Positions 418 to 56,706 of a stretch of 64,000 nt of DNA are shown one piece after another. The DNA lies in assembly GCA_019828595.1 (NCBI GenBank), contig JAHQRK010000011.1:310001-374000 (forward strand), written 5' to 3'. A program made the translations under genes and the position numbers. Position 1 is the stretch's first letter. The number at the start of each line of letters is the position of its first letter. Under the pieces are notes generated by a model that was given only the letters and a program-made list of their open reading frames with translations, had not been told where the DNA came from and did not search any database. The DNA is from Aphanomyces cochlioides (lineage: Eukaryota; Oomycota; Saprolegniomycetes; Saprolegniales; Verrucalvaceae).

Positions 418-720
418 TTATGCAGCGAAACCATCCTTTGCCTCGTCTTGTCCAAAAGTATTATGACCCACCTTCACATCGTCTTGACGCTTGATATTCG
501 CCTTCAAAATCGACGACCCGACATACGAAGCCATATCAGGATGCAAGGCAAAGTTATAGCGTGGAGAGTAAATGTAGACGGGATACGAGGGACGACGGTC
601 ACGGAAGGCGGTCATGTCACCTCGAGTGAGTTCTTGGGACGACTGCATGGTTGGTGAGTCGGCGGATCCTTCGGCCATGGCGACGGCGGCAACAAGCGCA
701 GACAAGATGCAGGTCTTCAT
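418..720 (-). CDS. Small secreted protein, FRDxRPSxPVYIY family (single-copy relative of the array gene)
   Basis: A 100-residue protein starting at the ATG whose first base is 720. Residues 1-18 (MKTCILSALVAAVAMAEG) form a signal peptide. The mature part carries the family core FRDRRPSYPVYIYSPRYNF and ends in FAA. The N-terminus is nearly identical to the proteins of the 27-46 kb array and the C-terminal half has diverged. The frame is open 16 codons further upstream, but those codons lie beyond the initiator at 730-744, so they should not be transcribed. No cysteines are present in the mature protein and no enzymatic motif is seen. Function is unknown; secretion is inferred from the signal peptide. 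It may be the progenitor or a descendant of the array gene. Confidence 0.75.
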   Translation of the reverse strand: MKTCILSALVAAVAMAEGSADSPTMQSSQELTRGDMTAFRDRRPSYPVYIYSPRYNFALHPDMASYVGSSILKANIKRQDDVKVGHNTFGQDEAKDGFAA

Positions 721-11195: not shown

Positions 11196-11211
11196 CTAGA
11201 GTGCTACCAGG

Positions 11212-11951: not shown

Positions 11952-11963
11952 TATTGCGGTTGG

Positions 11964-26809: not shown

Positions 26810-27230
26810 TTACTCTATCCATCATCAATATATATATGTCGATTGGACTTTCTCCATCAATTCATGAAGTACTGATTCCCTCGGGAAAATTATGTTATCG
26901 TCAGGTTCATGAGAAAGCTATGGTCAGACAAGATCGCATGTGACGCAGTAATCGCTACACGTGTCGGCCAATTGGGTGGTCCGGAGATACCATCTTTACC
27001 TGGACCGGGCGAATGAGTCGTGAAATTTGAGTGAGAAACATTTTCTATTCCCCGAATGGACTGTGTTTCACTATAACTGAGTGTTCAGTAGTTCTGGTTT
27101 GCCTGCTCTCATCAAGAAATTGCACTGTAGTAGTGCAACGAATGGCGGGCCTCTACATTCTCAAAGAATTTCAAATTGTTCAGGGCTTGCTCGACAGCAG
27201 GTTTCATAAATGCATAGCTTACAGCATCCG
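26810..27230. other. Spacer left of the tandem array
   Basis: It contains a short TA repeat (around 26828) and no recognised gene. Its last 70 bases encode the out-of-family tail of the truncated array gene. Confidence 0.4.
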
Positions 27231-27307
27231 TGCATGGTCGGTGAGTCTGCCGAACCTTCGGCCATGACGACGGCGGCAACAAGCGCAGACAAGATACAGG
27301 TCTTCAT
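27161..27307 (-). pseudogene. Truncated SSP gene at the left edge of the array
   Basis: It has the promoter, ATG (27307) and first 25 codons of the array gene, ending in SADSPTM, and then runs into unrelated sequence for 23 codons (HGCCKLCIYETCC and on) before a stop. It still encodes a complete signal peptide, so a 48-residue secreted peptide with several cysteines is conceivable but unsupported. Confidence 0.7.
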
Positions 27308-27574
27308 GGTAGACAGCGAATGTCGAAATGACCCATCGCAGACTTGGGTTGCCACGATGACAGCCGTTGGGAAGAATCCCCGTGACAGCCATGGACTACG
27401 CTTGTCAACCCAGCGGTGGCACCACGGAGTCGATCGCGTCTCACGGCGATTGCTTCATGTGTCGGCCGAGTGGGGGGTGGTCTCGATGGAGACGACGATA
27501 GTAGGAAGGGTATGACTCACGTAGCAGGTTTGCCGACATACAGCGTCAGTAGTATGGACAGCAATCTTCGCTCG

Positions 27575-27590
27575 GTGGGACGTATCCCAC
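27575..27590. other. Short hairpin in the array spacer (recurs every unit)
   Basis: GTGGGA-CGTA-TCCCAC is a 6-bp stem with a 4-base loop, about 130-150 bases downstream of the SSP stop codon. Role unknown. Confidence 0.4.
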
Positions 27591-27675
27591 GGACTACCCT
27601 AACCGCGACACCCCACACACACGACTCGACGGGAAGACCCAACCTCGGTGAACCCAACACAAAAACACATAGGAT

Positions 27676-27690
27676 AACAAACTGTTTGTT
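27676..27690. other. Overlapping palindromes just 3' of the SSP gene (recurs every unit)
   Basis: AACAAACTGTTTGTT is a perfect inverted repeat around a central T. It overlaps the 10-base palindrome TTGTTAACAA. It starts about 34 bases after the stop codon of copy 1 and could act in 3'-end formation. Confidence 0.45.
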
Positions 27691-27723
27691 AACAAGTTGA
27701 GCTCGACGTGTGTGATGAGGTTC

Positions 27724-28038
27724 TTATGCAGCGTCTTCGCTTTCCTTGTCGTCCTTGTCTTGACGGATGTATTGGCGGCGAGCCATACGGACCAACTTGG
27801 GAAGATCGCGGCGATCCACGTCGACCAACGTCGAGTCGACATACGAACGCAACGTGGGGTCTTCGTGGAAGGTGAAATGTGGCGCATAAATGTAGACGGG
27901 GTGGGAGGGACGATGGTCACGGAAGGCGGCCATGTCACGTCGAGCGTGTTCTTGGGACGACTGCATGGTCGGTGAGTCTGCCGAACCTTCGGCCATGACG
28001 ACGGCGGCAACAAGCGCAGACAAGATACAGGTCTTCAT
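27724..28038 (-). CDS. Array SSP copy 1
   Basis: A 104-residue small secreted protein; the description given here applies to all 25 copies. Residues 1-16 or so (MKTCILSALVAAVVMA) form a signal peptide. The mature part has no cysteine. Residues 39-55 are FRDHRPSHPVYIYAPHF, the core shared with all relatives in this window. Then follows a mixed region (LRSYVDSTLVDVDRRDLPKL), a basic segment (RMARRQYIRQ) and an acidic end (KDDKESEDAA). No enzyme motif, RxLR or LxLFLAK is present. The dibasic sites (RR at 33-34 and in the basic segment) could be processed, but that is speculation. Secretion is inferred; function is unknown. Gene dosage could give high expression if all copies are active. Confidence 0.8.
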   Translation of the reverse strand: MKTCILSALVAAVVMAEGSADSPTMQSSQEHARRDMAAFRDHRPSHPVYIYAPHFTFHEDPTLRSYVDSTLVDVDRRDLPKLVRMARRQYIRQDKDDKESEDAA

Positions 28039-28047
28039 GGTAGACAG

Positions 28048-28062
28048 CGAATGTCGAAATGA
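28048..28062 (-). promoter_or_regulatory. Initiator of array copy 1 (recurs in every unit)
   Basis: TCATTTCGACATTCG on the minus strand, about 10-24 nt before the ATG. It decides the start: the in-frame ATG 16 codons farther upstream (at 28086) lies outside the expected transcript. Confidence 0.65.
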
Positions 28063-28454
28063 CCCATCGCAGACTTGGGTTGCCACGATGACAGCCGTTG
28101 GGAAGAATCCCCGTGACAGCCATGGACTACGCTTGTCAACCCAGCGGTGGCACCACGGAGTCGATCGCGTCTCACGGCGATTGCTTCATGTGTCGGCCGA
28201 GTGGGGGGTGGTCTCGATGGAGACGACGATAGTAGGAAGGGTATGACTCACGTAGCAGGTTTGCCGACATACAGCGTCAGTAGTATGGACAGCAATCTTC
28301 GCTCGGTGGGACGTATCCCACGGACTACCCTAACCGCGACACCCCACACACACGACTCGACGGGAAGACCCAACCTCGGTGAACCCAACACAAAAACACA
28401 TAGGATAACAAACTGTTTGTTAACAAGTTGAGCTCGACGTGTGTGATGAGGTTC

Positions 28455-28769
28455 TTATGCAGCGTCTTCGCTTTCCTTGTCGTCCTTGTCTTGACGGATG
28501 TATTGGCGGCGAGCCATACGGACCAACTTGGGAAGATCGCGGCGATCCACGTCGACCAACGTCGAGTCGACATACGAACGCAACGTGGGGTCTTCGTGGA
28601 AGGTGAAATGTGGCGCATAAATGTAGACGGGGTGGGAGGGACGATGGTCACGGAAGGCGGCCATGTCACGTCGAGCGTGTTCTTGGGACGACTGCATGGT
28701 CGGTGAGTCTGCCGAACCTTCGGCCATGACGACGGCGGCAACAAGCGCAGACAAGATACAGGTCTTCAT
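28455..28769 (-). CDS. Array SSP copy 2
   Basis: Identical to copy 1, standard upstream region with six G. Confidence 0.75.
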   Translation of the reverse strand: MKTCILSALVAAVVMAEGSADSPTMQSSQEHARRDMAAFRDHRPSHPVYIYAPHFTFHEDPTLRSYVDSTLVDVDRRDLPKLVRMARRQYIRQDKDDKESEDAA

Positions 28770-29185
28770 GGTAGACAGCGAATGTCGAAATGACCCATCG
28801 CAGACTTGGGTTGCCACGATGACAGCCGTTGGGAAGAATCCCCGTGACAGCCATGGACTACGCTTGTCAACCCAGCGGTGGCACCACGGAGTCGATCGCG
28901 TCTCACGGCGATTGCTTCATGTGTCGGCCGAGTGGGGGGTGGTCTCGATGGAGACGACGATAGTAGGAAGGGTATGACTCACGTAGCAGGTTTGCCGACA
29001 TACAGCGTCAGTAGTATGGACAGCAATCTTCGCTCGGTGGGACGTATCCCACGGACTACCCTAACCGCGACACCCCACACACACGACTCGACGGGAAGAC
29101 CCAACCTCGGTGAACCCAACACAAAAACACATAGGATAACAAACTGTTTGTTAACAAGTTGAGCTCGACGTGTGTGATGAGGTTC

Positions 29186-29500
29186 TTATGCAGCGTCTTC
29201 GCTTTCCTTGTCGTCCTTGTCTTGACGGATGTATTGGCGGCGAGCCATACGGACCAACTTGGGAAGATCGCGGCGATCCACGTCGACCAACGTCGAGTCG
29301 ACATACGAACGCAACGTGGGGTCTTCGTGGAAGGTGAAATGTGGCGCATAAATGTAGACGGGGTGGGAGGGACGATGGTCACGGAAGGCGGCCATGTCAC
29401 GTCGAGCGTGTTCTTGGGACGACTGCATGGTCGGTGAGTCTGCCGAACCTTCGGCCATGACGACGGCGGCAACAAGCGCAGACAAGATACAGGTCTTCAT
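29186..29500 (-). CDS. Array SSP copy 3
   Basis: Identical to copy 1, standard upstream region. Confidence 0.75.
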   Translation of the reverse strand: MKTCILSALVAAVVMAEGSADSPTMQSSQEHARRDMAAFRDHRPSHPVYIYAPHFTFHEDPTLRSYVDSTLVDVDRRDLPKLVRMARRQYIRQDKDDKESEDAA

Positions 29501-29916
29501 GGTAGACAGCGAATGTCGAAATGACCCATCGCAGACTTGGGTTGCCACGATGACAGCCGTTGGGAAGAATCCCCGTGACAGCCATGGACTACGCTTGTCA
29601 ACCCAGCGGTGGCACCACGGAGTCGATCGCGTCTCACGGCGATTGCTTCATGTGTCGGCCGAGTGGGGGGTGGTCTCGATGGAGACGACGATAGTAGGAA
29701 GGGTATGACTCACGTAGCAGGTTTGCCGACATACAGCGTCAGTAGTATGGACAGCAATCTTCGCTCGGTGGGACGTATCCCACGGACTACCCTAACCGCG
29801 ACACCCCACACACACGACTCGACGGGAAGACCCAACCTCGGTGAACCCAACACAAAAACACATAGGATAACAAACTGTTTGTTAACAAGTTGAGCTCGAC
29901 GTGTGTGATGAGGTTC

Positions 29917-30231
29917 TTATGCAGCGTCTTCGCTTTCCTTGTCGTCCTTGTCTTGACGGATGTATTGGCGGCGAGCCATACGGACCAACTTGGGAAGATC
30001 GCGGCGATCCACGTCGACCAACGTCGAGTCGACATACGAACGCAACGTGGGGTCTTCGTGGAAGGTGAAATGTGGCGCATAAATGTAGACGGGGTGGGAG
30101 GGACGATGGTCACGGAAGGCGGCCATGTCACGTCGAGCGTGTTCTTGGGACGACTGCATGGTCGGTGAGTCTGCCGAACCTTCGGCCATGACGACGGCGG
30201 CAACAAGCGCAGACAAGATACAGGTCTTCAT
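29917..30231 (-). CDS. Array SSP copy 4
   Basis: Identical to copy 1, standard upstream region. Confidence 0.75.
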   Translation of the reverse strand: MKTCILSALVAAVVMAEGSADSPTMQSSQEHARRDMAAFRDHRPSHPVYIYAPHFTFHEDPTLRSYVDSTLVDVDRRDLPKLVRMARRQYIRQDKDDKESEDAA

Positions 30232-30647
30232 GGTAGACAGCGAATGTCGAAATGACCCATCGCAGACTTGGGTTGCCACGATGACAGCCGTTGGGAAGAA
30301 TCCCCGTGACAGCCATGGACTACGCTTGTCAACCCAGCGGTGGCACCACGGAGTCGATCGCGTCTCACGGCGATTGCTTCATGTGTCGGCCGAGTGGGGG
30401 GTGGTCTCGATGGAGACGACGATAGTAGGAAGGGTATGACTCACGTAGCAGGTTTGCCGACATACAGCGTCAGTAGTATGGACAGCAATCTTCGCTCGGT
30501 GGGACGTATCCCACGGACTACCCTAACCGCGACACCCCACACACACGACTCGACGGGAAGACCCAACCTCGGTGAACCCAACACAAAAACACATAGGATA
30601 ACAAACTGTTTGTTAACAAGTTGAGCTCGACGTGTGTGATGAGGTTC

Positions 30648-30962
30648 TTATGCAGCGTCTTCGCTTTCCTTGTCGTCCTTGTCTTGACGGATGTATTGGC
30701 GGCGAGCCATACGGACCAACTTGGGAAGATCGCGGCGATCCACGTCGACCAACGTCGAGTCGACATACGAACGCAACGTGGGGTCTTCGTGGAAGGTGAA
30801 ATGTGGCGCATAAATGTAGACGGGGTGGGAGGGACGATGGTCACGGAAGGCGGCCATGTCACGTCGAGCGTGTTCTTGGGACGACTGCATGGTCGGTGAG
30901 TCTGCCGAACCTTCGGCCATGACGACGGCGGCAACAAGCGCAGACAAGATACAGGTCTTCAT
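30648..30962 (-). CDS. Array SSP copy 5
   Basis: Identical to copy 1, standard upstream region. Confidence 0.75.
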   Translation of the reverse strand: MKTCILSALVAAVVMAEGSADSPTMQSSQEHARRDMAAFRDHRPSHPVYIYAPHFTFHEDPTLRSYVDSTLVDVDRRDLPKLVRMARRQYIRQDKDDKESEDAA

Positions 30963-31378
30963 GGTAGACAGCGAATGTCGAAATGACCCATCGCAGACTT
31001 GGGTTGCCACGATGACAGCCGTTGGGAAGAATCCCCGTGACAGCCATGGACTACGCTTGTCAACCCAGCGGTGGCACCACGGAGTCGATCGCGTCTCACG
31101 GCGATTGCTTCATGTGTCGGCCGAGTGGGGGGTGGTCTCGATGGAGACGACGATAGTAGGAAGGGTATGACTCACGTAGCAGGTTTGCCGACATACAGCG
31201 TCAGTAGTATGGACAGCAATCTTCGCTCGGTGGGACGTATCCCACGGACTACCCTAACCGCGACACCCCACACACACGACTCGACGGGAAGACCCAACCT
31301 CGGTGAACCCAACACAAAAACACATAGGATAACAAACTGTTTGTTAACAAGTTGAGCTCGACGTGTGTGATGAGGTTC

Positions 31379-31693
31379 TTATGCAGCGTCTTCGCTTTCC
31401 TTGTCGTCCTTGTCTTGACGGATGTATTGGCGGCGAGCCATACGGACCAACTTGGGAAGATCGCGGCGATCCACGTCGACCAACGTCGAGTCGACATACG
31501 AACGCAACGTGGGGTCTTCGTGGAAGGTGAAATGTGGCGCATAAATGTAGACGGGGTGGGAGGGACGATGGTCACGGAAGGCGGCCATGTCACGTCGAGC
31601 GTGTTCTTGGGACGACTGCATGGTCGGTGAGTCTGCCGAACCTTCGGCCATGACGACGGCGGCAACAAGCGCAGACAAGATACAGGTCTTCAT
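31379..31693 (-). CDS. Array SSP copy 6
   Basis: Identical to copy 1, standard upstream region. Confidence 0.75.
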   Translation of the reverse strand: MKTCILSALVAAVVMAEGSADSPTMQSSQEHARRDMAAFRDHRPSHPVYIYAPHFTFHEDPTLRSYVDSTLVDVDRRDLPKLVRMARRQYIRQDKDDKESEDAA

Positions 31694-32109
31694 GGTAGAC
31701 AGCGAATGTCGAAATGACCCATCGCAGACTTGGGTTGCCACGATGACAGCCGTTGGGAAGAATCCCCGTGACAGCCATGGACTACGCTTGTCAACCCAGC
31801 GGTGGCACCACGGAGTCGATCGCGTCTCACGGCGATTGCTTCATGTGTCGGCCGAGTGGGGGGTGGTCTCGATGGAGACGACGATAGTAGGAAGGGTATG
31901 ACTCACGTAGCAGGTTTGCCGACATACAGCGTCAGTAGTATGGACAGCAATCTTCGCTCGGTGGGACGTATCCCACGGACTACCCTAACCGCGACACCCC
32001 ACACACACGACTCGACGGGAAGACCCAACCTCGGTGAACCCAACACAAAAACACATAGGATAACAAACTGTTTGTTAACAAGTTGAGCTCGACGTGTGTG
32101 ATGAGGTTC

Positions 32110-32424
32110 TTATGCAGCGTCTTCGCTTTCCTTGTCGTCCTTGTCTTGACGGATGTATTGGCGGCGAGCCATACGGACCAACTTGGGAAGATCGCGGCGA
32201 TCCACGTCGACCAACGTCGAGTCGACATACGAACGCAACGTGGGGTCTTCGTGGAAGGTGAAATGTGGCGCATAAATGTAGACGGGGTGGGAGGGACGAT
32301 GGTCACGGAAGGCGGCCATGTCACGTCGAGCGTGTTCTTGGGACGACTGCATGGTCGGTGAGTCTGCCGAACCTTCGGCCATGACGACGGCGGCAACAAG
32401 CGCAGACAAGATACAGGTCTTCAT
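32110..32424 (-). CDS. Array SSP copy 7
   Basis: Identical coding. The G run upstream (near 32590) has five G and not six. Confidence 0.75.
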   Translation of the reverse strand: MKTCILSALVAAVVMAEGSADSPTMQSSQEHARRDMAAFRDHRPSHPVYIYAPHFTFHEDPTLRSYVDSTLVDVDRRDLPKLVRMARRQYIRQDKDDKESEDAA

Positions 32425-32839
32425 GGTAGACAGCGAATGTCGAAATGACCCATCGCAGACTTGGGTTGCCACGATGACAGCCGTTGGGAAGAATCCCCGT
32501 GACAGCCATGGACTACGCTTGTCAACCCAGCGGTGGCACCACGGAGTCGATCGCGTCTCACGGCGATTGCTTCATGTGTCGGCCGAGTGGGGGTGGTCTC
32601 GATGGAGACGACGATAGTAGGAAGGGTATGACTCACGTAGCAGGTTTGCCGACATACAGCGTCAGTAGTATGGACAGCAATCTTCGCTCGGTGGGACGTA
32701 TCCCACGGACTACCCTAACCGCGACACCCCACACACACGACTCGACGGGAAGACCCAACCTCGGTGAACCCAACACAAAAACACATAGGATAACAAACTG
32801 TTTGTTAACAAGTTGAGCTCGACGTGTGTGATGAGGTTC

Positions 32840-33154
32840 TTATGCAGCGTCTTCGCTTTCCTTGTCGTCCTTGTCTTGACGGATGTATTGGCGGCGAGCC
32901 ATACGGACCAACTTGGGAAGATCGCGGCGATCCACGTCGACCAACGTCGAGTCGACATACGAACGCAACGTGGGGTCTTCGTGGAAGGTGAAATGTGGCG
33001 CATAAATGTAGACGGGGTGGGAGGGACGATGGTCACGGAAGGCGGCCATGTCACGTCGAGCGTGTTCTTGGGACGACTGCATGGTCGGTGAGTCTGCCGA
33101 ACCTTCGGCCATGACGACGGCGGCAACAAGCGCAGACAAGATACAGGTCTTCAT
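32840..33154 (-). CDS. Array SSP copy 8
   Basis: Identical to copy 1, standard upstream region. Confidence 0.75.
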   Translation of the reverse strand: MKTCILSALVAAVVMAEGSADSPTMQSSQEHARRDMAAFRDHRPSHPVYIYAPHFTFHEDPTLRSYVDSTLVDVDRRDLPKLVRMARRQYIRQDKDDKESEDAA

Positions 33155-33570
33155 GGTAGACAGCGAATGTCGAAATGACCCATCGCAGACTTGGGTTGCC
33201 ACGATGACAGCCGTTGGGAAGAATCCCCGTGACAGCCATGGACTACGCTTGTCAACCCAGCGGTGGCACCACGGAGTCGATCGCGTCTCACGGCGATTGC
33301 TTCATGTGTCGGCCGAGTGGGGGGTGGTCTCGATGGAGACGACGATAGTAGGAAGGGTATGACTCACGTAGCAGGTTTGCCGACATACAGCGTCAGTAGT
33401 ATGGACAGCAATCTTCGCTCGGTGGGACGTATCCCACGGACTACCCTAACCGCGACACCCCACACACACGACTCGACGGGAAGACCCAACCTCGGTGAAC
33501 CCAACACAAAAACACATAGGATAACAAACTGTTTGTTAACAAGTTGAGCTCGACGTGTGTGATGAGGTTC

Positions 33571-33885
33571 TTATGCAGCGTCTTCGCTTTCCTTGTCGTC
33601 CTTGTCTTGACGGATGTATTGGCGGCGAGCCATACGGACCAACTTGGGAAGATCGCGGCGATCCACGTCGACCAACGTCGAGTCGACATACGAACGCAAC
33701 GTGGGGTCTTCGTGGAAGGTGAAATGTGGCGCATAAATGTAGACGGGGTGGGAGGGACGATGGTCACGGAAGGCGGCCATGTCACGTCGAGCGTGTTCTT
33801 GGGACGACTGCATGGTCGGTGAGTCTGCCGAACCTTCGGCCATGACGACGGCGGCAACAAGCGCAGACAAGATACAGGTCTTCAT
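33571..33885 (-). CDS. Array SSP copy 9
   Basis: Identical coding. The upstream G run (near 34050) has four G. Confidence 0.75.
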   Translation of the reverse strand: MKTCILSALVAAVVMAEGSADSPTMQSSQEHARRDMAAFRDHRPSHPVYIYAPHFTFHEDPTLRSYVDSTLVDVDRRDLPKLVRMARRQYIRQDKDDKESEDAA

Positions 33886-34299
33886 GGTAGACAGCGAATG
33901 TCGAAATGACCCATCGCAGACTTGGGTTGCCACGATGACAGCCGTTGGGAAGAATCCCCGTGACAGCCATGGACTACGCTTGTCAACCCAGCGGTGGCAC
34001 CACGGAGTCGATCGCGTCTCACGGCGATTGCTTCATGTGTCGGCCGAGTGGGGTGGTCTCGATGGAGACGACGATAGTAGGAAGGGTATGACTCACGTAG
34101 CAGGTTTGCCGACATACAGCGTCAGTAGTATGGACAGCAATCTTCGCTCGGTGGGACGTATCCCACGGACTACCCTAACCGCGACACCCCACACACACGA
34201 CTCGACGGGAAGACCCAACCTCGGTGAACCCAACACAAAAACACATAGGATAACAAACTGTTTGTTAACAAGTTGAGCTCGACGTGTGTGATGAGGTTC

Positions 34300-34614
34300 T
34301 TATGCAGCGTCTTCGCTTTCCTTGTCGTCCTTGTCTTGACGGATGTATTGGCGGCGAGCCATACGGACCAACTTGGGAAGATCGCGGCGATCCACGTCGA
34401 CCAACGTCGAGTCGACATACGAACGCAACGTGGGGTCTTCGTGGAAGGTGAAATGTGGCGCATAAATGTAGACGGGGTGGGAGGGACGATGGTCACGGAA
34501 GGCGGCCATGTCACGTCGAGCGTGTTCTTGGGACGACTGCATGGTCGGTGAGTCTGCCGAACCTTCGGCCATGACGACGGCGGCAACAAGCGCAGACAAG
34601 ATACAGGTCTTCAT
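34300..34614 (-). CDS. Array SSP copy 10
   Basis: Identical to copy 1, standard upstream region. Confidence 0.75.
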   Translation of the reverse strand: MKTCILSALVAAVVMAEGSADSPTMQSSQEHARRDMAAFRDHRPSHPVYIYAPHFTFHEDPTLRSYVDSTLVDVDRRDLPKLVRMARRQYIRQDKDDKESEDAA

Positions 34615-35030
34615 GGTAGACAGCGAATGTCGAAATGACCCATCGCAGACTTGGGTTGCCACGATGACAGCCGTTGGGAAGAATCCCCGTGACAGCCATG
34701 GACTACGCTTGTCAACCCAGCGGTGGCACCACGGAGTCGATCGCGTCTCACGGCGATTGCTTCATGTGTCGGCCGAGTGGGGGGTGGTCTCGATGGAGAC
34801 GACGATAGTAGGAAGGGTATGACTCACGTAGCAGGTTTGCCGACATACAGCGTCAGTAGTATGGACAGCAATCTTCGCTCGGTGGGACGTATCCCACGGA
34901 CTACCCTAACCGCGACACCCCACACACACGACTCGACGGGAAGACCCAACCTCGGTGAACCCAACACAAAAACACATAGGATAACAAACTGTTTGTTAAC
35001 AAGTTGAGCTCGACGTGTGTGATGAGGTTC

Positions 35031-35345
35031 TTATGCAGCGTCTTCGCTTTCCTTGTCGTCCTTGTCTTGACGGATGTATTGGCGGCGAGCCATACGGACC
35101 AACTTGGGAAGATCGCGGCGATCCACGTCGACCAACGTCGAGTCGACATACGAACGCAACGTGGGGTCTTCGTGGAAGGTGAAATGTGGCGCATAAATGT
35201 AGACGGGGTGGGAGGGACGATGGTCACGGAAGGCGGCCATGTCACGTCGAGCGTGTTCTTGGGACGACTGCATGGTCGGTGAGTCTGCCGAACCTTCGGC
35301 CATGACGACGGCGGCAACAAGCGCAGACAAGATACAGGTCTTCAT
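35031..35345 (-). CDS. Array SSP copy 11
   Basis: Identical to copy 1, standard upstream region. Confidence 0.75.
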   Translation of the reverse strand: MKTCILSALVAAVVMAEGSADSPTMQSSQEHARRDMAAFRDHRPSHPVYIYAPHFTFHEDPTLRSYVDSTLVDVDRRDLPKLVRMARRQYIRQDKDDKESEDAA

Positions 35346-35761
35346 GGTAGACAGCGAATGTCGAAATGACCCATCGCAGACTTGGGTTGCCACGATGACA
35401 GCCGTTGGGAAGAATCCCCGTGACAGCCATGGACTACGCTTGTCAACCCAGCGGTGGCACCACGGAGTCGATCGCGTCTCACGGCGATTGCTTCATGTGT
35501 CGGCCGAGTGGGGGGTGGTCTCGATGGAGACGACGATAGTAGGAAGGGTATGACTCACGTAGCAGGTTTGCCGACATACAGCGTCAGTAGTATGGACAGC
35601 AATCTTCGCTCGGTGGGACGTATCCCACGGACTACCCTAACCGCGACACCCCACACACACGACTCGACGGGAAGACCCAACCTCGGTGAACCCAACACAA
35701 AAACACATAGGATAACAAACTGTTTGTTAACAAGTTGAGCTCGACGTGTGTGATGAGGTTC

Positions 35762-36076
35762 TTATGCAGCGTCTTCGCTTTCCTTGTCGTCCTTGTCTTG
35801 ACGGATGTATTGGCGGCGAGCCATACGGACCAACTTGGGAAGATCGCGGCGATCCACGTCGACCAACGTCGAGTCGACATACGAACGCAACGTGGGGTCT
35901 TCGTGGAAGGTGAAATGTGGCGCATAAATGTAGACGGGGTGGGAGGGACGATGGTCACGGAAGGCGGCCATGTCACGTCGAGCGTGTTCTTGGGACGACT
36001 GCATGGTCGGTGAGTCTGCCGAACCTTCGGCCATGACGACGGCGGCAACAAGCGCAGACAAGATACAGGTCTTCAT
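35762..36076 (-). CDS. Array SSP copy 12
   Basis: Identical to copy 1, standard upstream region. Confidence 0.75.
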   Translation of the reverse strand: MKTCILSALVAAVVMAEGSADSPTMQSSQEHARRDMAAFRDHRPSHPVYIYAPHFTFHEDPTLRSYVDSTLVDVDRRDLPKLVRMARRQYIRQDKDDKESEDAA

Positions 36077-36492
36077 GGTAGACAGCGAATGTCGAAATGA
36101 CCCATCGCAGACTTGGGTTGCCACGATGACAGCCGTTGGGAAGAATCCCCGTGACAGCCATGGACTACGCTTGTCAACCCAGCGGTGGCACCACGGAGTC
36201 GATCGCGTCTCACGGCGATTGCTTCATGTGTCGGCCGAGTGGGGGGTGGTCTCGATGGAGACGACGATAGTAGGAAGGGTATGACTCACGTAGCAGGTTT
36301 GCCGACATACAGCGTCAGTAGTATGGACAGCAATCTTCGCTCGGTGGGACGTATCCCACGGACTACCCTAACCGCGACACCCCACACACACGACTCGACG
36401 GGAAGACCCAACCTCGGTGAACCCAACACAAAAACACATAGGATAACAAACTGTTTGTTAACAAGTTGAGCTCGACGTGTGTGATGAGGTTC

Positions 36493-36807
36493 TTATGCAG
36501 CGTCTTCGCTTTCCTTGTCGTCCTTGTCTTGACGGATGTATTGGCGGCGAGCCATACGGACCAACTTGGGAAGATCGCGGCGATCCACGTCGACCAACGT
36601 CGAGTCGACATACGAACGCAACGTGGGGTCTTCGTGGAAGGTGAAATGTGGCGCATAAATGTAGACGGGGTGGGAGGGACGATGGTCACGGAAGGCGGCC
36701 ATGTCACGTCGAGCGTGTTCTTGGGACGACTGCATGGTCGGTGAGTCTGCCGAACCTTCGGCCATGACGACGGCGGCAACAAGCGCAGACAAGATACAGG
36801 TCTTCAT
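36493..36807 (-). CDS. Array SSP copy 13
   Basis: Identical to copy 1, standard upstream region. Confidence 0.75.
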   Translation of the reverse strand: MKTCILSALVAAVVMAEGSADSPTMQSSQEHARRDMAAFRDHRPSHPVYIYAPHFTFHEDPTLRSYVDSTLVDVDRRDLPKLVRMARRQYIRQDKDDKESEDAA

Positions 36808-37223
36808 GGTAGACAGCGAATGTCGAAATGACCCATCGCAGACTTGGGTTGCCACGATGACAGCCGTTGGGAAGAATCCCCGTGACAGCCATGGACTACG
36901 CTTGTCAACCCAGCGGTGGCACCACGGAGTCGATCGCGTCTCACGGCGATTGCTTCATGTGTCGGCCGAGTGGGGGGTGGTCTCGATGGAGACGACGATA
37001 GTAGGAAGGGTATGACTCACGTAGCAGGTTTGCCGACATACAGCGTCAGTAGTATGGACAGCAATCTTCGCTCGGTGGGACGTATCCCACGGACTACCCT
37101 AACCGCGACACCCCACACACACGACTCGACGGGAAGACCCAACCTCGGTGAACCCAACACAAAAACACATAGGATAACAAACTGTTTGTTAACAAGTTGA
37201 GCTCGACGTGTGTGATGAGGTTC

Positions 37224-37538
37224 TTATGCAGCGTCTTCGCTTTCCTTGTCGTCCTTGTCTTGACGGATGTATTGGCGGCGAGCCATACGGACCAACTTGG
37301 GAAGATCGCGGCGATCCACGTCGACCAACGTCGAGTCGACATACGAACGCAACGTGGGGTCTTCGTGGAAGGTGAAATGTGGCGCATAAATGTAGACGGG
37401 GTGGGAGGGACGATGGTCACGGAAGGCGGCCATGTCACGTCGAGCGTGTTCTTGGGACGACTGCATGGTCGGTGAGTCTGCCGAACCTTCGGCCATGACG
37501 ACGGCGGCAACAAGCGCAGACAAGATACAGGTCTTCAT
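37224..37538 (-). CDS. Array SSP copy 14
   Basis: Identical to copy 1, standard upstream region. Confidence 0.75.
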   Translation of the reverse strand: MKTCILSALVAAVVMAEGSADSPTMQSSQEHARRDMAAFRDHRPSHPVYIYAPHFTFHEDPTLRSYVDSTLVDVDRRDLPKLVRMARRQYIRQDKDDKESEDAA

Positions 37539-37954
37539 GGTAGACAGCGAATGTCGAAATGACCCATCGCAGACTTGGGTTGCCACGATGACAGCCGTTG
37601 GGAAGAATCCCCGTGACAGCCATGGACTACGCTTGTCAACCCAGCGGTGGCACCACGGAGTCGATCGCGTCTCACGGCGATTGCTTCATGTGTCGGCCGA
37701 GTGGGGGGTGGTCTCGATGGAGACGACGATAGTAGGAAGGGTATGACTCACGTAGCAGGTTTGCCGACATACAGCGTCAGTAGTATGGACAGCAATCTTC
37801 GCTCGGTGGGACGTATCCCACGGACTACCCTAACCGCGACACCCCACACACACGACTCGACGGGAAGACCCAACCTCGGTGAACCCAACACAAAAACACA
37901 TAGGATAACAAACTGTTTGTTAACAAGTTGAGCTCGACGTGTGTGATGAGGTTC

Positions 37955-38269
37955 TTATGCAGCGTCTTCGCTTTCCTTGTCGTCCTTGTCTTGACGGATG
38001 TATTGGCGGCGAGCCATACGGACCAACTTGGGAAGATCGCGGCGATCCACGTCGACCAACGTCGAGTCGACATACGAACGCAACGTGGGGTCTTCGTGGA
38101 AGGTGAAATGTGGCGCATAAATGTAGACGGGGTGGGAGGGACGATGGTCACGGAAGGCGGCCATGTCACGTCGAGCGTGTTCTTGGGACGACTGCATGGT
38201 CGGTGAGTCTGCCGAACCTTCGGCCATGACGACGGCGGCAACAAGCGCAGACAAGATACAGGTCTTCAT
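37955..38269 (-). CDS. Array SSP copy 15
   Basis: Identical to copy 1, standard upstream region. Confidence 0.75.
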   Translation of the reverse strand: MKTCILSALVAAVVMAEGSADSPTMQSSQEHARRDMAAFRDHRPSHPVYIYAPHFTFHEDPTLRSYVDSTLVDVDRRDLPKLVRMARRQYIRQDKDDKESEDAA

Positions 38270-38685
38270 GGTAGACAGCGAATGTCGAAATGACCCATCG
38301 CAGACTTGGGTTGCCACGATGACAGCCGTTGGGAAGAATCCCCGTGACAGCCATGGACTACGCTTGTCAACCCAGCGGTGGCACCACGGAGTCGATCGCG
38401 TCTCACGGCGATTGCTTCATGTGTCGGCCGAGTGGGGGGTGGTCTCGATGGAGACGACGATAGTAGGAAGGGTATGACTCACGTAGCAGGTTTGCCGACA
38501 TACAGCGTCAGTAGTATGGACAGCAATCTTCGCTCGGTGGGACGTATCCCACGGACTACCCTAACCGCGACACCCCACACACACGACTCGACGGGAAGAC
38601 CCAACCTCGGTGAACCCAACACAAAAACACATAGGATAACAAACTGTTTGTTAACAAGTTGAGCTCGACGTGTGTGATGAGGTTC

Positions 38686-39000
38686 TTATGCAGCGTCTTC
38701 GCTTTCCTTGTCGTCCTTGTCTTGACGGATGTATTGGCGGCGAGCCATACGGACCAACTTGGGAAGATCGCGGCGATCCACGTCGACCAACGTCGAGTCG
38801 ACATACGAACGCAACGTGGGGTCTTCGTGGAAGGTGAAATGTGGCGCATAAATGTAGACGGGGTGGGAGGGACGATGGTCACGGAAGGCGGCCATGTCAC
38901 GTCGAGCGTGTTCTTGGGACGACTGCATGGTCGGTGAGTCTGCCGAACCTTCGGCCATGACGACGGCGGCAACAAGCGCAGACAAGATACAGGTCTTCAT
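38686..39000 (-). CDS. Array SSP copy 16
   Basis: Identical to copy 1, standard upstream region. Confidence 0.75.
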   Translation of the reverse strand: MKTCILSALVAAVVMAEGSADSPTMQSSQEHARRDMAAFRDHRPSHPVYIYAPHFTFHEDPTLRSYVDSTLVDVDRRDLPKLVRMARRQYIRQDKDDKESEDAA

Positions 39001-39416
39001 GGTAGACAGCGAATGTCGAAATGACCCATCGCAGACTTGGGTTGCCACGATGACAGCCGTTGGGAAGAATCCCCGTGACAGCCATGGACTACGCTTGTCA
39101 ACCCAGCGGTGGCACCACGGAGTCGATCGCGTCTCACGGCGATTGCTTCATGTGTCGGCCGAGTGGGGGGTGGTCTCGATGGAGACGACGATAGTAGGAA
39201 GGGTATGACTCACGTAGCAGGTTTGCCGACATACAGCGTCAGTAGTATGGACAGCAATCTTCGCTCGGTGGGACGTATCCCACGGACTACCCTAACCGCG
39301 ACACCCCACACACACGACTCGACGGGAAGACCCAACCTCGGTGAACCCAACACAAAAACACATAGGATAACAAACTGTTTGTTAACAAGTTGAGCTCGAC
39401 GTGTGTGATGAGGTTC

Positions 39417-39731
39417 TTATGCAGCGTCTTCGCTTTCCTTGTCGTCCTTGTCTTGACGGATGTATTGGCGGCGAGCCATACGGACCAACTTGGGAAGATC
39501 GCGGCGATCCACGTCGACCAACGTCGAGTCGACATACGAACGCAACGTGGGGTCTTCGTGGAAGGTGAAATGTGGCGCATAAATGTAGACGGGGTGGGAG
39601 GGACGATGGTCACGGAAGGCGGCCATGTCACGTCGAGCGTGTTCTTGGGACGACTGCATGGTCGGTGAGTCTGCCGAACCTTCGGCCATGACGACGGCGG
39701 CAACAAGCGCAGACAAGATACAGGTCTTCAT
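39417..39731 (-). CDS. Array SSP copy 17
   Basis: Identical to copy 1, standard upstream region. Confidence 0.75.
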   Translation of the reverse strand: MKTCILSALVAAVVMAEGSADSPTMQSSQEHARRDMAAFRDHRPSHPVYIYAPHFTFHEDPTLRSYVDSTLVDVDRRDLPKLVRMARRQYIRQDKDDKESEDAA

Positions 39732-40147
39732 GGTAGACAGCGAATGTCGAAATGACCCATCGCAGACTTGGGTTGCCACGATGACAGCCGTTGGGAAGAA
39801 TCCCCGTGACAGCCATGGACTACGCTTGTCAACCCAGCGGTGGCACCACGGAGTCGATCGCGTCTCACGGCGATTGCTTCATGTGTCGGCCGAGTGGGGG
39901 GTGGTCTCGATGGAGACGACGATAGTAGGAAGGGTATGACTCACGTAGCAGGTTTGCCGACATACAGCGTCAGTAGTATGGACAGCAATCTTCGCTCGGT
40001 GGGACGTATCCCACGGACTACCCTAACCGCGACACCCCACACACACGACTCGACGGGAAGACCCAACCTCGGTGAACCCAACACAAAAACACATAGGATA
40101 ACAAACTGTTTGTTAACAAGTTGAGCTCGACGTGTGTGATGAGGTTC

Positions 40148-40462
40148 TTATGCAGCGTCTTCGCTTTCCTTGTCGTCCTTGTCTTGACGGATGTATTGGC
40201 GGCGAGCCATACGGACCAACTTGGGAAGATCGCGGCGATCCACGTCGACCAACGTCGAGTCGACATACGAACGCAACGTGGGGTCTTCGTGGAAGGTGAA
40301 ATGTGGCGCATAAATGTAGACGGGGTGGGAGGGACGATGGTCACGGAAGGCGGCCATGTCACGTCGAGCGTGTTCTTGGGACGACTGCATGGTCGGTGAG
40401 TCTGCCGAACCTTCGGCCATGACGACGGCGGCAACAAGCGCAGACAAGATACAGGTCTTCAT
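40148..40462 (-). CDS. Array SSP copy 18
   Basis: Identical coding. Upstream near 40637 one T is missing (GGTCCG in place of GGTCTCG). Confidence 0.75.
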   Translation of the reverse strand: MKTCILSALVAAVVMAEGSADSPTMQSSQEHARRDMAAFRDHRPSHPVYIYAPHFTFHEDPTLRSYVDSTLVDVDRRDLPKLVRMARRQYIRQDKDDKESEDAA

Positions 40463-40877
40463 GGTAGACAGCGAATGTCGAAATGACCCATCGCAGACTT
40501 GGGTTGCCACGATGACAGCCGTTGGGAAGAATCCCCGTGACAGCCATGGACTACGCTTGTCAACCCAGCGGTGGCACCACGGAGTCGATCGCGTCTCACG
40601 GCGATTGCTTCATGTGTCGGCCGAGTGGGGGGTGGTCCGATGGAGACGACGATAGTAGGAAGGGTATGACTCACGTAGCAGGTTTGCCGACATACAGCGT
40701 CAGTAGTATGGACAGCAATCTTCGCTCGGTGGGACGTATCCCACGGACTACCCTAACCGCGACACCCCACACACACGACTCGACGGGAAGACCCAACCTC
40801 GGTGAACCCAACACAAAAACACATAGGATAACAAACTGTTTGTTAACAAGTTGAGCTCGACGTGTGTGATGAGGTTC

Positions 40878-41192
40878 TTATGCAGCGTCTTCGCTTTCCT
40901 TGTCGTCCTTGTCTTGACGGATGTATTGGCGGCGAGCCATACGGACCAACTTGGGAAGATCGCGGCGATCCACGTCGACCAACGTCGAGTCGACATACGA
41001 ACGCAACGTGGGGTCTTCGTGGAAGGTGAAATGTGGCGCATAAATGTAGACGGGGTGGGAGGGACGATGGTCACGGAAGGCGGCCATGTCACGTCGAGCG
41101 TGTTCTTGGGACGACTGCATGGTCGGTGAGTCTGCCGAACCTTCGGCCATGACGACGGCGGCAACAAGCGCAGACAAGATACAGGTCTTCAT
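40878..41192 (-). CDS. Array SSP copy 19
   Basis: Identical to copy 1, standard upstream region. Confidence 0.75.
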   Translation of the reverse strand: MKTCILSALVAAVVMAEGSADSPTMQSSQEHARRDMAAFRDHRPSHPVYIYAPHFTFHEDPTLRSYVDSTLVDVDRRDLPKLVRMARRQYIRQDKDDKESEDAA

Positions 41193-41608
41193 GGTAGACA
41201 GCGAATGTCGAAATGACCCATCGCAGACTTGGGTTGCCACGATGACAGCCGTTGGGAAGAATCCCCGTGACAGCCATGGACTACGCTTGTCAACCCAGCG
41301 GTGGCACCACGGAGTCGATCGCGTCTCACGGCGATTGCTTCATGTGTCGGCCGAGTGGGGGGTGGTCTCGATGGAGACGACGATAGTAGGAAGGGTATGA
41401 CTCACGTAGCAGGTTTGCCGACATACAGCGTCAGTAGTATGGACAGCAATCTTCGCTCGGTGGGACGTATCCCACGGACTACCCTAACCGCGACACCCCA
41501 CACACACGACTCGACGGGAAGACCCAACCTCGGTGAACCCAACACAAAAACACATAGGATAACAAACTGTTTGTTAACAAGTTGAGCTCGACGTGTGTGA
41601 TGAGGTTC

Positions 41609-41923
41609 TTATGCAGCGTCTTCGCTTTCCTTGTCGTCCTTGTCTTGACGGATGTATTGGCGGCGAGCCATACGGACCAACTTGGGAAGATCGCGGCGAT
41701 CCACGTCGACCAACGTCGAGTCGACATACGAACGCAACGTGGGGTCTTCGTGGAAGGTGAAATGTGGCGCATAAATGTAGACGGGGTGGGAGGGACGATG
41801 GTCACGGAAGGCGGCCATGTCACGTCGAGCGTGTTCTTGGGACGACTGCATGGTCGGTGAGTCTGCCGAACCTTCGGCCATGACGACGGCGGCAACAAGC
41901 GCAGACAAGATACAGGTCTTCAT
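41609..41923 (-). CDS. Array SSP copy 20
   Basis: Identical coding. Upstream G run (near 42087) of five, as at copy 7. Confidence 0.75.
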   Translation of the reverse strand: MKTCILSALVAAVVMAEGSADSPTMQSSQEHARRDMAAFRDHRPSHPVYIYAPHFTFHEDPTLRSYVDSTLVDVDRRDLPKLVRMARRQYIRQDKDDKESEDAA

Positions 41924-42338
41924 GGTAGACAGCGAATGTCGAAATGACCCATCGCAGACTTGGGTTGCCACGATGACAGCCGTTGGGAAGAATCCCCGTG
42001 ACAGCCATGGACTACGCTTGTCAACCCAGCGGTGGCACCACGGAGTCGATCGCGTCTCACGGCGATTGCTTCATGTGTCGGCCGAGTGGGGGTGGTCTCG
42101 ATGGAGACGACGATAGTAGGAAGGGTATGACTCACGTAGCAGGTTTGCCGACATACAGCGTCAGTAGTATGGACAGCAATCTTCGCTCGGTGGGACGTAT
42201 CCCACGGACTACCCTAACCGCGACACCCCACACACACGACTCGACGGGAAGACCCAACCTCGGTGAACCCAACACAAAAACACATAGGATAACAAACTGT
42301 TTGTTAACAAGTTGAGCTCGACGTGTGTGATGAGGTTC

Positions 42339-42653
42339 TTATGCAGCGTCTTCGCTTTCCTTGTCGTCCTTGTCTTGACGGATGTATTGGCGGCGAGCCA
42401 TACGGACCAACTTGGGAAGATCGCGGCGATCCACGTCGACCAACGTCGAGTCGACATACGAACGCAACGTGGGGTCTTCGTGGAAGGTGAAATGTGGCGC
42501 ATAAATGTAGACGGGGTGGGAGGGACGATGGTCACGGAAGGCGGCCATGTCACGTCGAGCGTGTTCTTGGGACGACTGCATGGTCGGTGAGTCTGCCGAA
42601 CCTTCGGCCATGACGACGGCGGCAACAAGCGCAGACAAGATACAGGTCTTCAT
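42339..42653 (-). CDS. Array SSP copy 21
   Basis: Identical to copy 1, standard upstream region. Confidence 0.75.
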   Translation of the reverse strand: MKTCILSALVAAVVMAEGSADSPTMQSSQEHARRDMAAFRDHRPSHPVYIYAPHFTFHEDPTLRSYVDSTLVDVDRRDLPKLVRMARRQYIRQDKDDKESEDAA

Positions 42654-43069
42654 GGTAGACAGCGAATGTCGAAATGACCCATCGCAGACTTGGGTTGCCA
42701 CGATGACAGCCGTTGGGAAGAATCCCCGTGACAGCCATGGACTACGCTTGTCAACCCAGCGGTGGCACCACGGAGTCGATCGCGTCTCACGGCGATTGCT
42801 TCATGTGTCGGCCGAGTGGGGGGTGGTCTCGATGGAGACGACGATAGTAGGAAGGGTATGACTCACGTAGCAGGTTTGCCGACATACAGCGTCAGTAGTA
42901 TGGACAGCAATCTTCGCTCGGTGGGACGTATCCCACGGACTACCCTAACCGCGACACCCCACACACACGACTCGACGGGAAGACCCAACCTCGGTGAACC
43001 CAACACAAAAACACATAGGATAACAAACTGTTTGTTAACAAGTTGAGCTCGACGTGTGTGATGAGGTTC

Positions 43070-43384
43070 TTATGCAGCGTCTTCGCTTTCCTTGTCGTCC
43101 TTGTCTTGACGGATGTATTGGCGGCGAGCCATACGGACCAACTTGGGAAGATCGCGGCGATCCACGTCGACCAACGTCGAGTCGACATACGAACGCAACG
43201 TGGGGTCTTCGTGGAAGGTGAAATGTGGCGCATAAATGTAGACGGGGTGGGAGGGACGATGGTCACGGAAGGCGGCCATGTCACGTCGAGCGTGTTCTTG
43301 GGACGACTGCATGGTCGGTGAGTCTGCCGAACCTTCGGCCATGACGACGGCGGCAACAAGCGCAGACAAGATACAGGTCTTCAT
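43070..43384 (-). CDS. Array SSP copy 22
   Basis: Identical to copy 1, standard upstream region. Confidence 0.75.
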   Translation of the reverse strand: MKTCILSALVAAVVMAEGSADSPTMQSSQEHARRDMAAFRDHRPSHPVYIYAPHFTFHEDPTLRSYVDSTLVDVDRRDLPKLVRMARRQYIRQDKDDKESEDAA

Positions 43385-43800
43385 GGTAGACAGCGAATGT
43401 CGAAATGACCCATCGCAGACTTGGGTTGCCACGATGACAGCCGTTGGGAAGAATCCCCGTGACAGCCATGGACTACGCTTGTCAACCCAGCGGTGGCACC
43501 ACGGAGTCGATCGCGTCTCACGGCGATTGCTTCATGTGTCGGCCGAGTGGGGGGTGGTCTCGATGGAGACGACGATAGTAGGAAGGGTATGACTCACGTA
43601 GCAGGTTTGCCGACATACAGCGTCAGTAGTATGGACAGCAATCTTCGCTCGGTGGGACGTATCCCACGGACTACCCTAACCGCGACACCCCACACACACG
43701 ACTCGACGGGAAGACCCAACCTCGGTGAACCCAACACAAAAACACATAGGATAACAAACTGTTTGTTAACAAGTTGAGCTCGACGTGTGTGATGAGGTTC

Positions 43801-44115
43801 TTATGCAGCGTCTTCGCTTTCCTTGTCGTCCTTGTCTTGACGGATGTATTGGCGGCGAGCCATACGGACCAACTTGGGAAGATCGCGGCGATCCACGTCG
43901 ACCAACGTCGAGTCGACATACGAACGCAACGTGGGGTCTTCGTGGAAGGTGAAATGTGGCGCATAAATGTAGACGGGGTGGGAGGGACGATGGTCACGGA
44001 AGGCGGCCATGTCACGTCGAGCGTGTTCTTGGGACGACTGCATGGTCGGTGAGTCTGCCGAACCTTCGGCCATGACGACGGCGGCAACAAGCGCAGACAA
44101 GATACAGGTCTTCAT
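43801..44115 (-). CDS. Array SSP copy 23
   Basis: Identical to copy 1, standard upstream region. Confidence 0.75.
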   Translation of the reverse strand: MKTCILSALVAAVVMAEGSADSPTMQSSQEHARRDMAAFRDHRPSHPVYIYAPHFTFHEDPTLRSYVDSTLVDVDRRDLPKLVRMARRQYIRQDKDDKESEDAA

Positions 44116-44531
44116 GGTAGACAGCGAATGTCGAAATGACCCATCGCAGACTTGGGTTGCCACGATGACAGCCGTTGGGAAGAATCCCCGTGACAGCCAT
44201 GGACTACGCTTGTCAACCCAGCGGTGGCACCACGGAGTCGATCGCGTCTCACGGCGATTGCTTCATGTGTCGGCCGAGTGGGGGGTGGTCTCGATGGAGA
44301 CGACGATAGTAGGAAGGGTATGACTCACGTAGCAGGTTTGCCGACATACAGCGTCAGTAGTATGGACAGCAATCTTCGCTCGGTGGGACGTATCCCACGG
44401 ACTACCCTAACCGCGACACCCCACACACACGACTCGACGGGAAGACCCAACCTCGGTGAACCCAACACAAAAACACATAGGATAACAAACTGTTTGTTAA
44501 CAAGTTGAGCTCGACGTGTGTGATGAGGTTC

Positions 44532-44846
44532 TTATGCAGCGTCTTCGCTTTCCTTGTCGTCCTTGTCTTGACGGATGTATTGGCGGCGAGCCATACGGAC
44601 CAACTTGGGAAGATCGCGGCGATCCACGTCGACCAACGTCGAGTCGACATACGAACGCAACGTGGGGTCTTCGTGGAAGGTGAAATGTGGCGCATAAATG
44701 TAGACGGGGTGGGAGGGACGATGGTCACGGAAGGCGGCCATGTCACGTCGAGCGTGTTCTTGGGACGACTGCATGGTCGGTGAGTCTGCCGAACCTTCGG
44801 CCATGACGACGGCGGCAACAAGCGCAGACAAGATACAGGTCTTCAT
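44532..44846 (-). CDS. Array SSP copy 24
   Basis: Identical coding. Upstream near 45020 the same missing T as at copy 18. Confidence 0.75.
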   Translation of the reverse strand: MKTCILSALVAAVVMAEGSADSPTMQSSQEHARRDMAAFRDHRPSHPVYIYAPHFTFHEDPTLRSYVDSTLVDVDRRDLPKLVRMARRQYIRQDKDDKESEDAA

Positions 44847-45261
44847 GGTAGACAGCGAATGTCGAAATGACCCATCGCAGACTTGGGTTGCCACGATGAC
44901 AGCCGTTGGGAAGAATCCCCGTGACAGCCATGGACTACGCTTGTCAACCCAGCGGTGGCACCACGGAGTCGATCGCGTCTCACGGCGATTGCTTCATGTG
45001 TCGGCCGAGTGGGGGGTGGTCCGATGGAGACGACGATAGTAGGAAGGGTATGACTCACGTAGCAGGTTTGCCGACATACAGCGTCAGTAGTATGGACAGC
45101 AATCTTCGCTCGGTGGGACGTATCCCACGGACTACCCTAACCGCGACACCCCACACACACGACTCGACGGGAAGACCCAACCTCGGTGAACCCAACACAA
45201 AAACACATAGGATAACAAACTGTTTGTTAACAAGTTGAGCTCGACGTGTGTGATGAGGTTC

Positions 45262-45576
45262 TTATGCAGCGTCTTCGCTTTCCTTGTCGTCCTTGTCTTG
45301 ACGGATGTATTGGCGGCGAGCCATACGGACCAACTTGGGAAGATCGCGGCGATCCACGTCGACCAACGTCGAGTCGACATACGAACGCAACGTGGGGTCT
45401 TCGTGGAAGGTGAAATGTGGCGCATAAATGTAGACGGGGTGGGAGGGACGATGGTCACGGAAGGCGGCCATGTCACGTCGAGCGTGTTCTTGGGACGACT
45501 GCATGGTCGGTGAGTCTGCCGAACCTTCGGCCATGACGACGGCGGCAACAAGCGCAGACAAGATACAGGTCTTCAT
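45262..45576 (-). CDS. Array SSP copy 25 (last)
   Basis: Identical coding with a standard near-upstream region. Its upstream sequence leaves the repeat at 45787, 211 bases before the start codon, so this copy may reveal how much promoter is needed. Confidence 0.75.
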   Translation of the reverse strand: MKTCILSALVAAVVMAEGSADSPTMQSSQEHARRDMAAFRDHRPSHPVYIYAPHFTFHEDPTLRSYVDSTLVDVDRRDLPKLVRMARRQYIRQDKDDKESEDAA

Positions 45577-45787
45577 GGTAGACAGCGAATGTCGAAATGA
45601 CCCATCGCAGACTTGGGTTGCCACGATGACAGCCGTTGGGAAGAATCCCCGTGACAGCCATGGACTACGCTTGTCAACCCAGCGGTGGCACCACGGAGTC
45701 GATCGCGTCTCACGGCGATTGCTTCATGTGTCGGCCGAGTGGGGGGTGGTCTCGATGGAGACGACGATAGTAGGAAGGGTATGACTC

Positions 45788-55991: not shown

Positions 55992-56212
55992 CCATTGTGA
56001 TACGACTCGTTGATCACGTTAATCCTGTAATCAAAATGGTTGAAAGCAAATGTGTTGGATCCAATGCTTCATTGTCCATTGGTGCCGACGATGTGGGACT
56101 CACCTTCGTCTCAGTGGCTGCCCTTTGACGCCCTGGTAGGAATATTCAATGGAGCCGAGACAAGCCTTGCATTCAAACGATAGAATTATGCTAGCCTCAA
56201 TCCTGCATTTAG

Positions 56213-56404
56213 TCAAGCAGCATCCTCCTCTTCCGTAGATTGGCGACCATAACGGAGACGGATCGACTTGCGTTGACCACGGCGGGGCAAAAACGTGACC
56301 ACAGACGTGTCGTCGTCCGACATATCAATCGGGAGATCGAAATGGGGGGCGTAAATGTAGACTGGATGCGATGGACGATGGTCACGGAAACCAGTCATGT
56401 CCAA
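56213..56404. repeat. Inverted repeat arm (192 bp), partner at 56863-57054
   Basis: The reverse complement of 56213-56404 matches 56863-57054 at all positions but two (GCT versus GGA in the penultimate codons). The identity starts sharply at TTGGACATGAC and covers the 3' half of both genes up to the stop codon. Confidence 0.9.
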
Positions 56405-56533
56405 ACGAAATGGTCGCGCAATGTCCTCTTGAGAGACTTGAGTGGACTCGTGGGATGGCGCTGTTGGTGCGTCCGCCGTTCCTTCAGCCAAAGTAGACAA
56501 GATCGCAATCGCAGACAAGGTGAAAAGCTTCAT
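56213..56533 (-). CDS. Small secreted protein, FRDxRPSxPVYIY family, divergent pair left
   Basis: A 106-residue protein from ATG 56533 with signal peptide MKLFTLSAIAILSTLAEG. After a spacer that is unlike its neighbour comes LDMTGFRDHRPSHPVYIY and a C-terminal half with an acidic patch (DMSDDDTSVV), a basic patch (RRGQRKSIRLRYGR) and the end EEEDAA. An initiator-like CATTCTCAAAGTT lies at 56541-56553 (minus). The last 64 residues are identical to the neighbour at 56707 except one. The function is unknown. Confidence 0.75.
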   Translation of the reverse strand: MKLFTLSAIAILSTLAEGTADAPTAPSHESTQVSQEDIARPFRLDMTGFRDHRPSHPVYIYAPHFDLPIDMSDDDTSVVTFLPRRGQRKSIRLRYGRQSTEEEDAA

Positions 56534-56678
56534 GGAGGGCAACTTTGAGAATGCTATGGTCGAGGCTGTGACCTTTGAAATTGATGAAACATCAATCAAA
56601 CATTTGACTTGGCAGTGATAGTTCTATTGACCACACCGCACTTTCTTTCCAACGACAAGCAGCCCAGAGGAACACAAG

Positions 56679-56694
56679 TCATTTTCGAATTGCG
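56679..56694 (+). promoter_or_regulatory. Initiator of the 56707-57054 gene
   Basis: TCATTTTCGAATTGCG, 13-28 bases before the ATG. Only 173 bases separate the two start codons of the divergent pair. Confidence 0.6.
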
Positions 56695-56706
56695 TTCCAT
56701 TCCACC

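Follow-up and report, generated by a model that had tools for sequence, protein, structure and literature searches.

Tandem amplification of genes for secreted proteins has precedents among the oomycetes. The accessible portion of the long-read genome study of Aphanomyces euteiches ATCC201684 (PMC8780586) reports tandemly repeated "MDR-rich" small secreted proteins (SSPs), describes SSPs as a whole as lacking a conserved pattern, and restricts its satellite search to monomers of 100 to 500 bp. Excerpts from work on Phytophthora sojae (PMC2661136) place Avr1a in four tandem copies of a 5.2-kb segment and give about 54 near-identical copies for Avh426, a number estimated by depth. Here we describe a locus of Aphanomyces cochlioides, a water mold that rots the roots of sugar beet, in which an SSP-like gene is repeated in 25 complete, identical copies. 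It lies within a window of 64,000 nucleotides (assembly GCA_019828595.1, contig JAHQRK010000011.1, positions 310,001 to 374,000 of the forward strand), whose own numbering is used throughout. We consider it probable that at this locus one member of a secreted-protein family of Aphanomyces forms a tandem multigene array, kept for the dosage of a conserved product. Arrays of this kind have already been noted in the sister species; the anchored locus with all of its frames open is new, and a literature search, mostly of titles and abstract openings, found no paper on the A. cochlioides array.

The array is real and striking, and an earlier note on this stretch described it correctly as 18.5 kb of a 731-bp unit with 25 complete copies, partial ends, and 25 identical reading frames. 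Its span is 18,557 bp: exact periodicity begins at 27231, the final partial unit matches up to 45787, and an anchor word that occurs 26 times delimits 25 complete units, arranged head-to-tail. Each unit consists of a 315-bp minus-strand gene (104 codons plus stop) and a 416-bp spacer, and the gene is present in 25 letter-for-letter copies, from 27724-28038 through 45262-45576. The features of the array are as follows.

27231..45787, no strand assigned: tandem array of the 731-bp unit, 25.39 periods, from periodicity
27161..27307, minus strand: gene truncated at the left array edge after codon 25, its frame continuing into the flank
27724..28038, minus strand: first gene in the set of 25 complete, identical copies, each of 104 codons plus stop, from comparison of the copies
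28039..28150, minus strand: putative promoter of the first gene, about 110 bp that are also conserved in the paralog at 418-720, repeated in each unit
45262..45576, minus strand: last of the 25 identical complete genes, from comparison of the copies
45577..45787, minus strand: partial last unit with the upstream region of the 25th gene

The perfection that the earlier note ascribed to the array holds for the genes (25/25) and only in part for whole units. Twenty of the 25 are 731 bp long and identical; four measure 730 bp and one 729 bp, the five having lost 1 or 2 bases within a single 12-bp spot of the spacer, either at unit positions 239-240 in a run of six G (units 8, 10, and 21) or at unit position 250 in TCTC beside that run (units 19 and 25). 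Because these deletions cluster at a homopolymer, the longest of the 731-bp unit, they may be sequencing errors. At 25.39 units, the array starts and ends out of phase, and its left boundary interrupts a gene, as trimming of the edges after the array had formed would produce. Tandem Repeats Finder gave no entry for the array, the longest period that it handled being 500. An Rfam scan of the window returned no matches at gathering scores; the array is therefore not a known ribosomal RNA or small nuclear RNA array.

A promoter for each gene, as the earlier note proposed, is plausible, if putative: the 150 nt upstream of the array gene are identical in 25/25 copies, about 110 bp of them are conserved with the paralog at 418-720, and a block resembling the initiator (INR) and flanking promoter region (FPR) begins 24 nt upstream of the ATG in each unit. 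Compared in 25-bp steps, the array gene and this paralog are 76 to 100% identical from -110 to +140, 72% identical in the next step, and 28 to 61% identical thereafter, a profile suggesting that the two have a common promoter, signal peptide, and core and differ in their C-terminal halves. The word TCATTYT, with at most one mismatch, lies within 40 nt upstream of the ATG in 5/5 family genes (random segments, 10.6%) and is followed by an FPR-like stretch. This evidence for an INR/FPR-like promoter in the family is moderate, because the word was chosen after one example in the accessible text of PMC3599244 and the five upstream regions include two that are homologous. In Phytophthora infestans, according to that text, the INR+FPR motif is linked with elevated mRNA levels and with functions in infection.

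When the genome was searched in translation with the array protein, at least 32 matches came back (such counts are lower bounds). Besides the 25 array copies there are seven: the left-edge piece, two pieces from contig C18, and four further family members. One of the four, AC1031_004460, lies on contig C5; apart from that gene and the C18 fragment, all family members that were found are inside the window. Those outside the array are the following.

418..720, minus strand: single-copy paralog, 100 aa, with the same putative promoter, signal peptide, and core and a different C-terminal half
56213..56533, minus strand: family member P0018, 106 aa, head-to-head with P0020
56707..57054, plus strand: family member P0020, 115 aa

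The outer 3' parts of the head-to-head pair (56200-56431 and 56836-57067) form an inverted repeat, 94% identical over 232 bp; within 56213-57054 the 3' halves, including the core, are near-identical and the 5' halves differ, as after gene conversion. A core, DMxxFRDHRPSHPVYIYAPHF, is common to the family with few changes, and the remainder of the proteins diverges. A wider search, confined to relatives with common short words and thus not implying absence from other organisms, gathered 22 proteins, of which 17 are named, 16 from A. euteiches and one, the product of the C5 gene, from A. cochlioides. The exact string FRDHRPSHPVYIYAPHF occurs in 11 of the 22; the others are variants or seemingly frameshifted or shortened models. 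One distant member, P0022, carries the UniRef label "RxLR effector protein."

Over the 21-codon core, the uncorrected proportions of synonymous (pS) and nonsynonymous (pN) differences between the array gene and the pair and C5 genes are 0.51 to 0.66 and 0.041, respectively; against the single-copy paralog they are 0.42 and 0.123. Over whole genes, the paralogs give pS values of 0.41 to 0.66 and pN values of 0.26 to 0.38, likewise uncorrected. On these values, constraint between lineages lies mainly within the core, and the genes form a four-lineage family, new here, with a short conserved core under purifying selection.

Each of the four lineages has an A. euteiches counterpart: P0003 for the array, P0010 for the paralog at 418-720, P0021 for the pair, and P0022 for the C5 gene. 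P0003 matches the array protein at 97/104 aligned positions. Over the stretch that runs from the core to the C terminus, 69 of 70 positions in the array lineage are identical between A. cochlioides and A. euteiches, against 58/66, 63/69, and 52/60 in the other three, and a second A. euteiches representative, P0005, is identical to P0003 over the same region. By these alignments the amplified lineage is the least divergent of the family between both species, an observation that is also new. Two further relatives from ENA match the array protein at 67/70 and 66/72 positions from core to C terminus. The contigs on which they sit, at most 876 and 855 bp, are little longer than one unit, which suggests that their arrays were collapsed in short-read assemblies.

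M, D, and R are abundant in P0003 (5.1, 12.1, and 11.1%), the values for the array protein being 4.8, 11.5, and 10.6%, and P0003 and its kin carry ATCC201684 strain tags. P0003 and the array family very probably correspond to the MDR-rich SSP class of A. euteiches, and the tandem repetition that marks that class is found here at 25 copies; none of P0010, P0021, and P0022 combines high levels of all three residues. Near-identical A. euteiches proteins are clustered on contigs of 49,200 and 34,916 bp.

Our preferred account joins these observations in three steps. Each 731-bp unit would be its own transcription unit; unequal crossing-over, gene conversion, or both would keep the copies identical by concerted evolution, much as in ribosomal DNA (rDNA); and the array would be retained for the large amounts of a conserved secreted product that so many copies could supply. 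The earlier note had offered unequal crossing-over, gene conversion, and rolling-circle amplification: the identity of the copies points to recent or continuing homogenization, and the rolling-circle route, while possible, found no positive evidence. Since the mature chain of the amplified lineage is the least divergent between species, dosage of a conserved secreted product suits the data better than diversification in an arms race.

Several points weigh against retention for dosage, which is itself something we infer. The assembly holds no substitutions between the 25 complete units, and polishing may have removed true ones. Constraint outside the core is mild, whole-gene pN/pS between paralogs being about 0.5 to 0.6. 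The accessible text of PMC8780586 gives the MDR-rich genes as single copy in Illumina-sequenced A. euteiches strains except NC1, which may reflect collapse or real variation. Many A. euteiches models (P0006-P0009 and P0011-P0017) look frame-switched or shortened, whether by long-read indel error or by real decay, and not every copy need be intact.

The alternative that survives best, although we judge it unlikely, is a neutral or selfish satellite in which recombination alone spreads and homogenizes the unit and the gene rides along as a passenger, its copy number conferring no advantage. A satellite of this kind would account for a spacer that is as identical between units as the gene, short deletions aside, for array edges that are out of phase and on the left cut through a gene, and for the many broken A. 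euteiches models. It also draws on a rearranged piece of the unit on contig C18 (L007, 5099-5668), made up of unit positions 478-618 followed by 300-730 at 99.3 and 98.6% identity. This fragment lacks the upstream region and the first 25 codons, sits between sequences repeated elsewhere in the genome, and lies near a frame with a marginal match to a DDE_1 transposase (E value of 1.2e-4; 22.2 bits versus a cut-off of 22); array DNA seems to have been captured here at a site rich in transposons. Against a passenger gene stand the 25/25 intact frames in the A. cochlioides array, the mature chain of the array lineage, which varies less between species than that of any other lineage of the family, and the purifying selection seen in the core. 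The breakpoint at the right end of the C18 fragment is near in phase, within about 2 bp, with the one at the array's left edge; we considered this as a sign of translocation and found it unconvincing, several pairs of ends being possible.

An assembly artefact, in which a few true copies were expanded in error, is very improbable. Repeated copying of one consensus could yield such near-perfect identity, with every difference next to a homopolymer, yet the 531-bp left flank and the 863-bp right flank each occur once in the genome, so that the assembly passes from unique DNA through the array into unique DNA and the array is anchored at either end. The five deviating units fall into three patterns, and the related gene clusters stand in a separate long-read assembly of A. 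euteiches, both of which argue against an artefact. The figure of 25 is the copy count in the assembly, and the true number could differ.

Hardly any probability attaches to the idea that the other strand codes and that an 86-aa plus-strand open reading frame overlapping the gene (27715-27975 and its equivalents), open in each unit and with a start resembling a signal peptide, is the gene: a homologue search returned one candidate for it and none at an E value of ≤0.001, against 19 relatives besides itself for the minus-strand frame, on which the purifying selection in the core also lies, and we rejected it. With pS far above pN in the core, the minus-strand frame is, by this measure, the selected one.

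Elsewhere in the window, retroelement genes (RNase H/integrase, gag, and a reverse transcriptase with an endonuclease domain) lie left of the array at 6773-14925 and 18378-20861. The segments at 2323-2603 and 26164-26443, in opposite orientation, are 72% identical over 285 bp, and the second is no more than 1.1 kb from the array.

The array protein, at 104 aa, falls below the 300-residue limit of Aphanomyces SSPs. By eye, its N terminus resembles a signal peptide (MK, a hydrophobic stretch, and an A-x-A-like end at VMA), and a putative cut before E17 would leave 88 residues with a pI of 5.9 and no cysteine. A Pfam search found no family up to an E value of 10, in keeping with the absence of known domains that defines SSPs, and a PDB sequence search gave a single match that is not meaningful (E value of 0.78). 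An AlphaFold model of P0001 from 11 sequences has no confident fold (mean predicted local distance difference test score, 59.1; predicted template modeling score, 0.19) and so yields no clue to function. The RxLR effector motif R-x-L-R has no match within the 104 residues, and the Crinkler N-terminal domain PF20147 was not found in the protein; elsewhere in the window, 2758-3399 encodes that domain (E value of 1.7e-23). GC content at third codon positions is 0.66 in the array gene, 0.54 to 0.62 in the four paralogs, and 0.44 to 0.60 in four other open reading frames of the window, a contrast too weak to serve as a hint of high expression through codon bias.

The product probably acts outside the oomycete cell, with the plant, microbes, or its own surface as possible targets. 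The earlier note called it a secreted effector. An SSP-like gene with a signal-peptide-like start stands; the name "effector" is the weaker part, drawing on that start and on the Aphanomyces SSP group, and a mature chain unchanged at 69 of 70 positions across species with different hosts, A. euteiches infecting pea, is unusual for an effector engaged in an arms race. A bolder reading, which we advance tentatively and regard as doubtful, is that plant-pathogenic Aphanomyces have in common a conserved device for dosage, the protein-coding equivalent of rDNA, where concerted evolution would hold dozens of copies of one non-diversifying protein identical; the core would be a short functional peptide, and the cysteine-free product would be secreted in bulk as a coat, adhesive, or antimicrobial rather than as an arms-race effector.

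One anchored locus thus displays the extent to which a single secreted-protein gene can be amplified in an oomycete with every copy intact, and what was a short remark on A. euteiches becomes a system of two species in which concerted evolution and gene dosage can be tested. Since short-read assemblies are likely to collapse arrays of this sort, the secreted product may have been overlooked in the root-rot Aphanomyces. The conserved core offers a concrete target for functional work.

Among the systems described in the excerpted literature, the MDR-rich SSPs of A. euteiches are closest: both species have tandem SSP genes, and P0003 is the 97/104 match to the array protein; the A. cochlioides array differs in being complete, anchored on both sides, and open in all 25 frames. 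The RXLR genes of P. sojae (Avr1a, Avr3a, and Avh426; excerpts of PMC2661136) likewise offer near-identical copies of secreted-protein genes, but the proteins are unrelated, the A. cochlioides array protein has no RxLR motif, and the array unit is far shorter. The Hessian fly SSSGP clusters, as far as the available part of PMC2955719 describes them, are also clusters of small secreted-protein genes, and the array gene and the paralog at 418-720, with their common putative promoter and signal peptide and unlike C-terminal halves, recall their pattern; the mature chains of the fly diversify, whereas the copies in the A. cochlioides array are identical.

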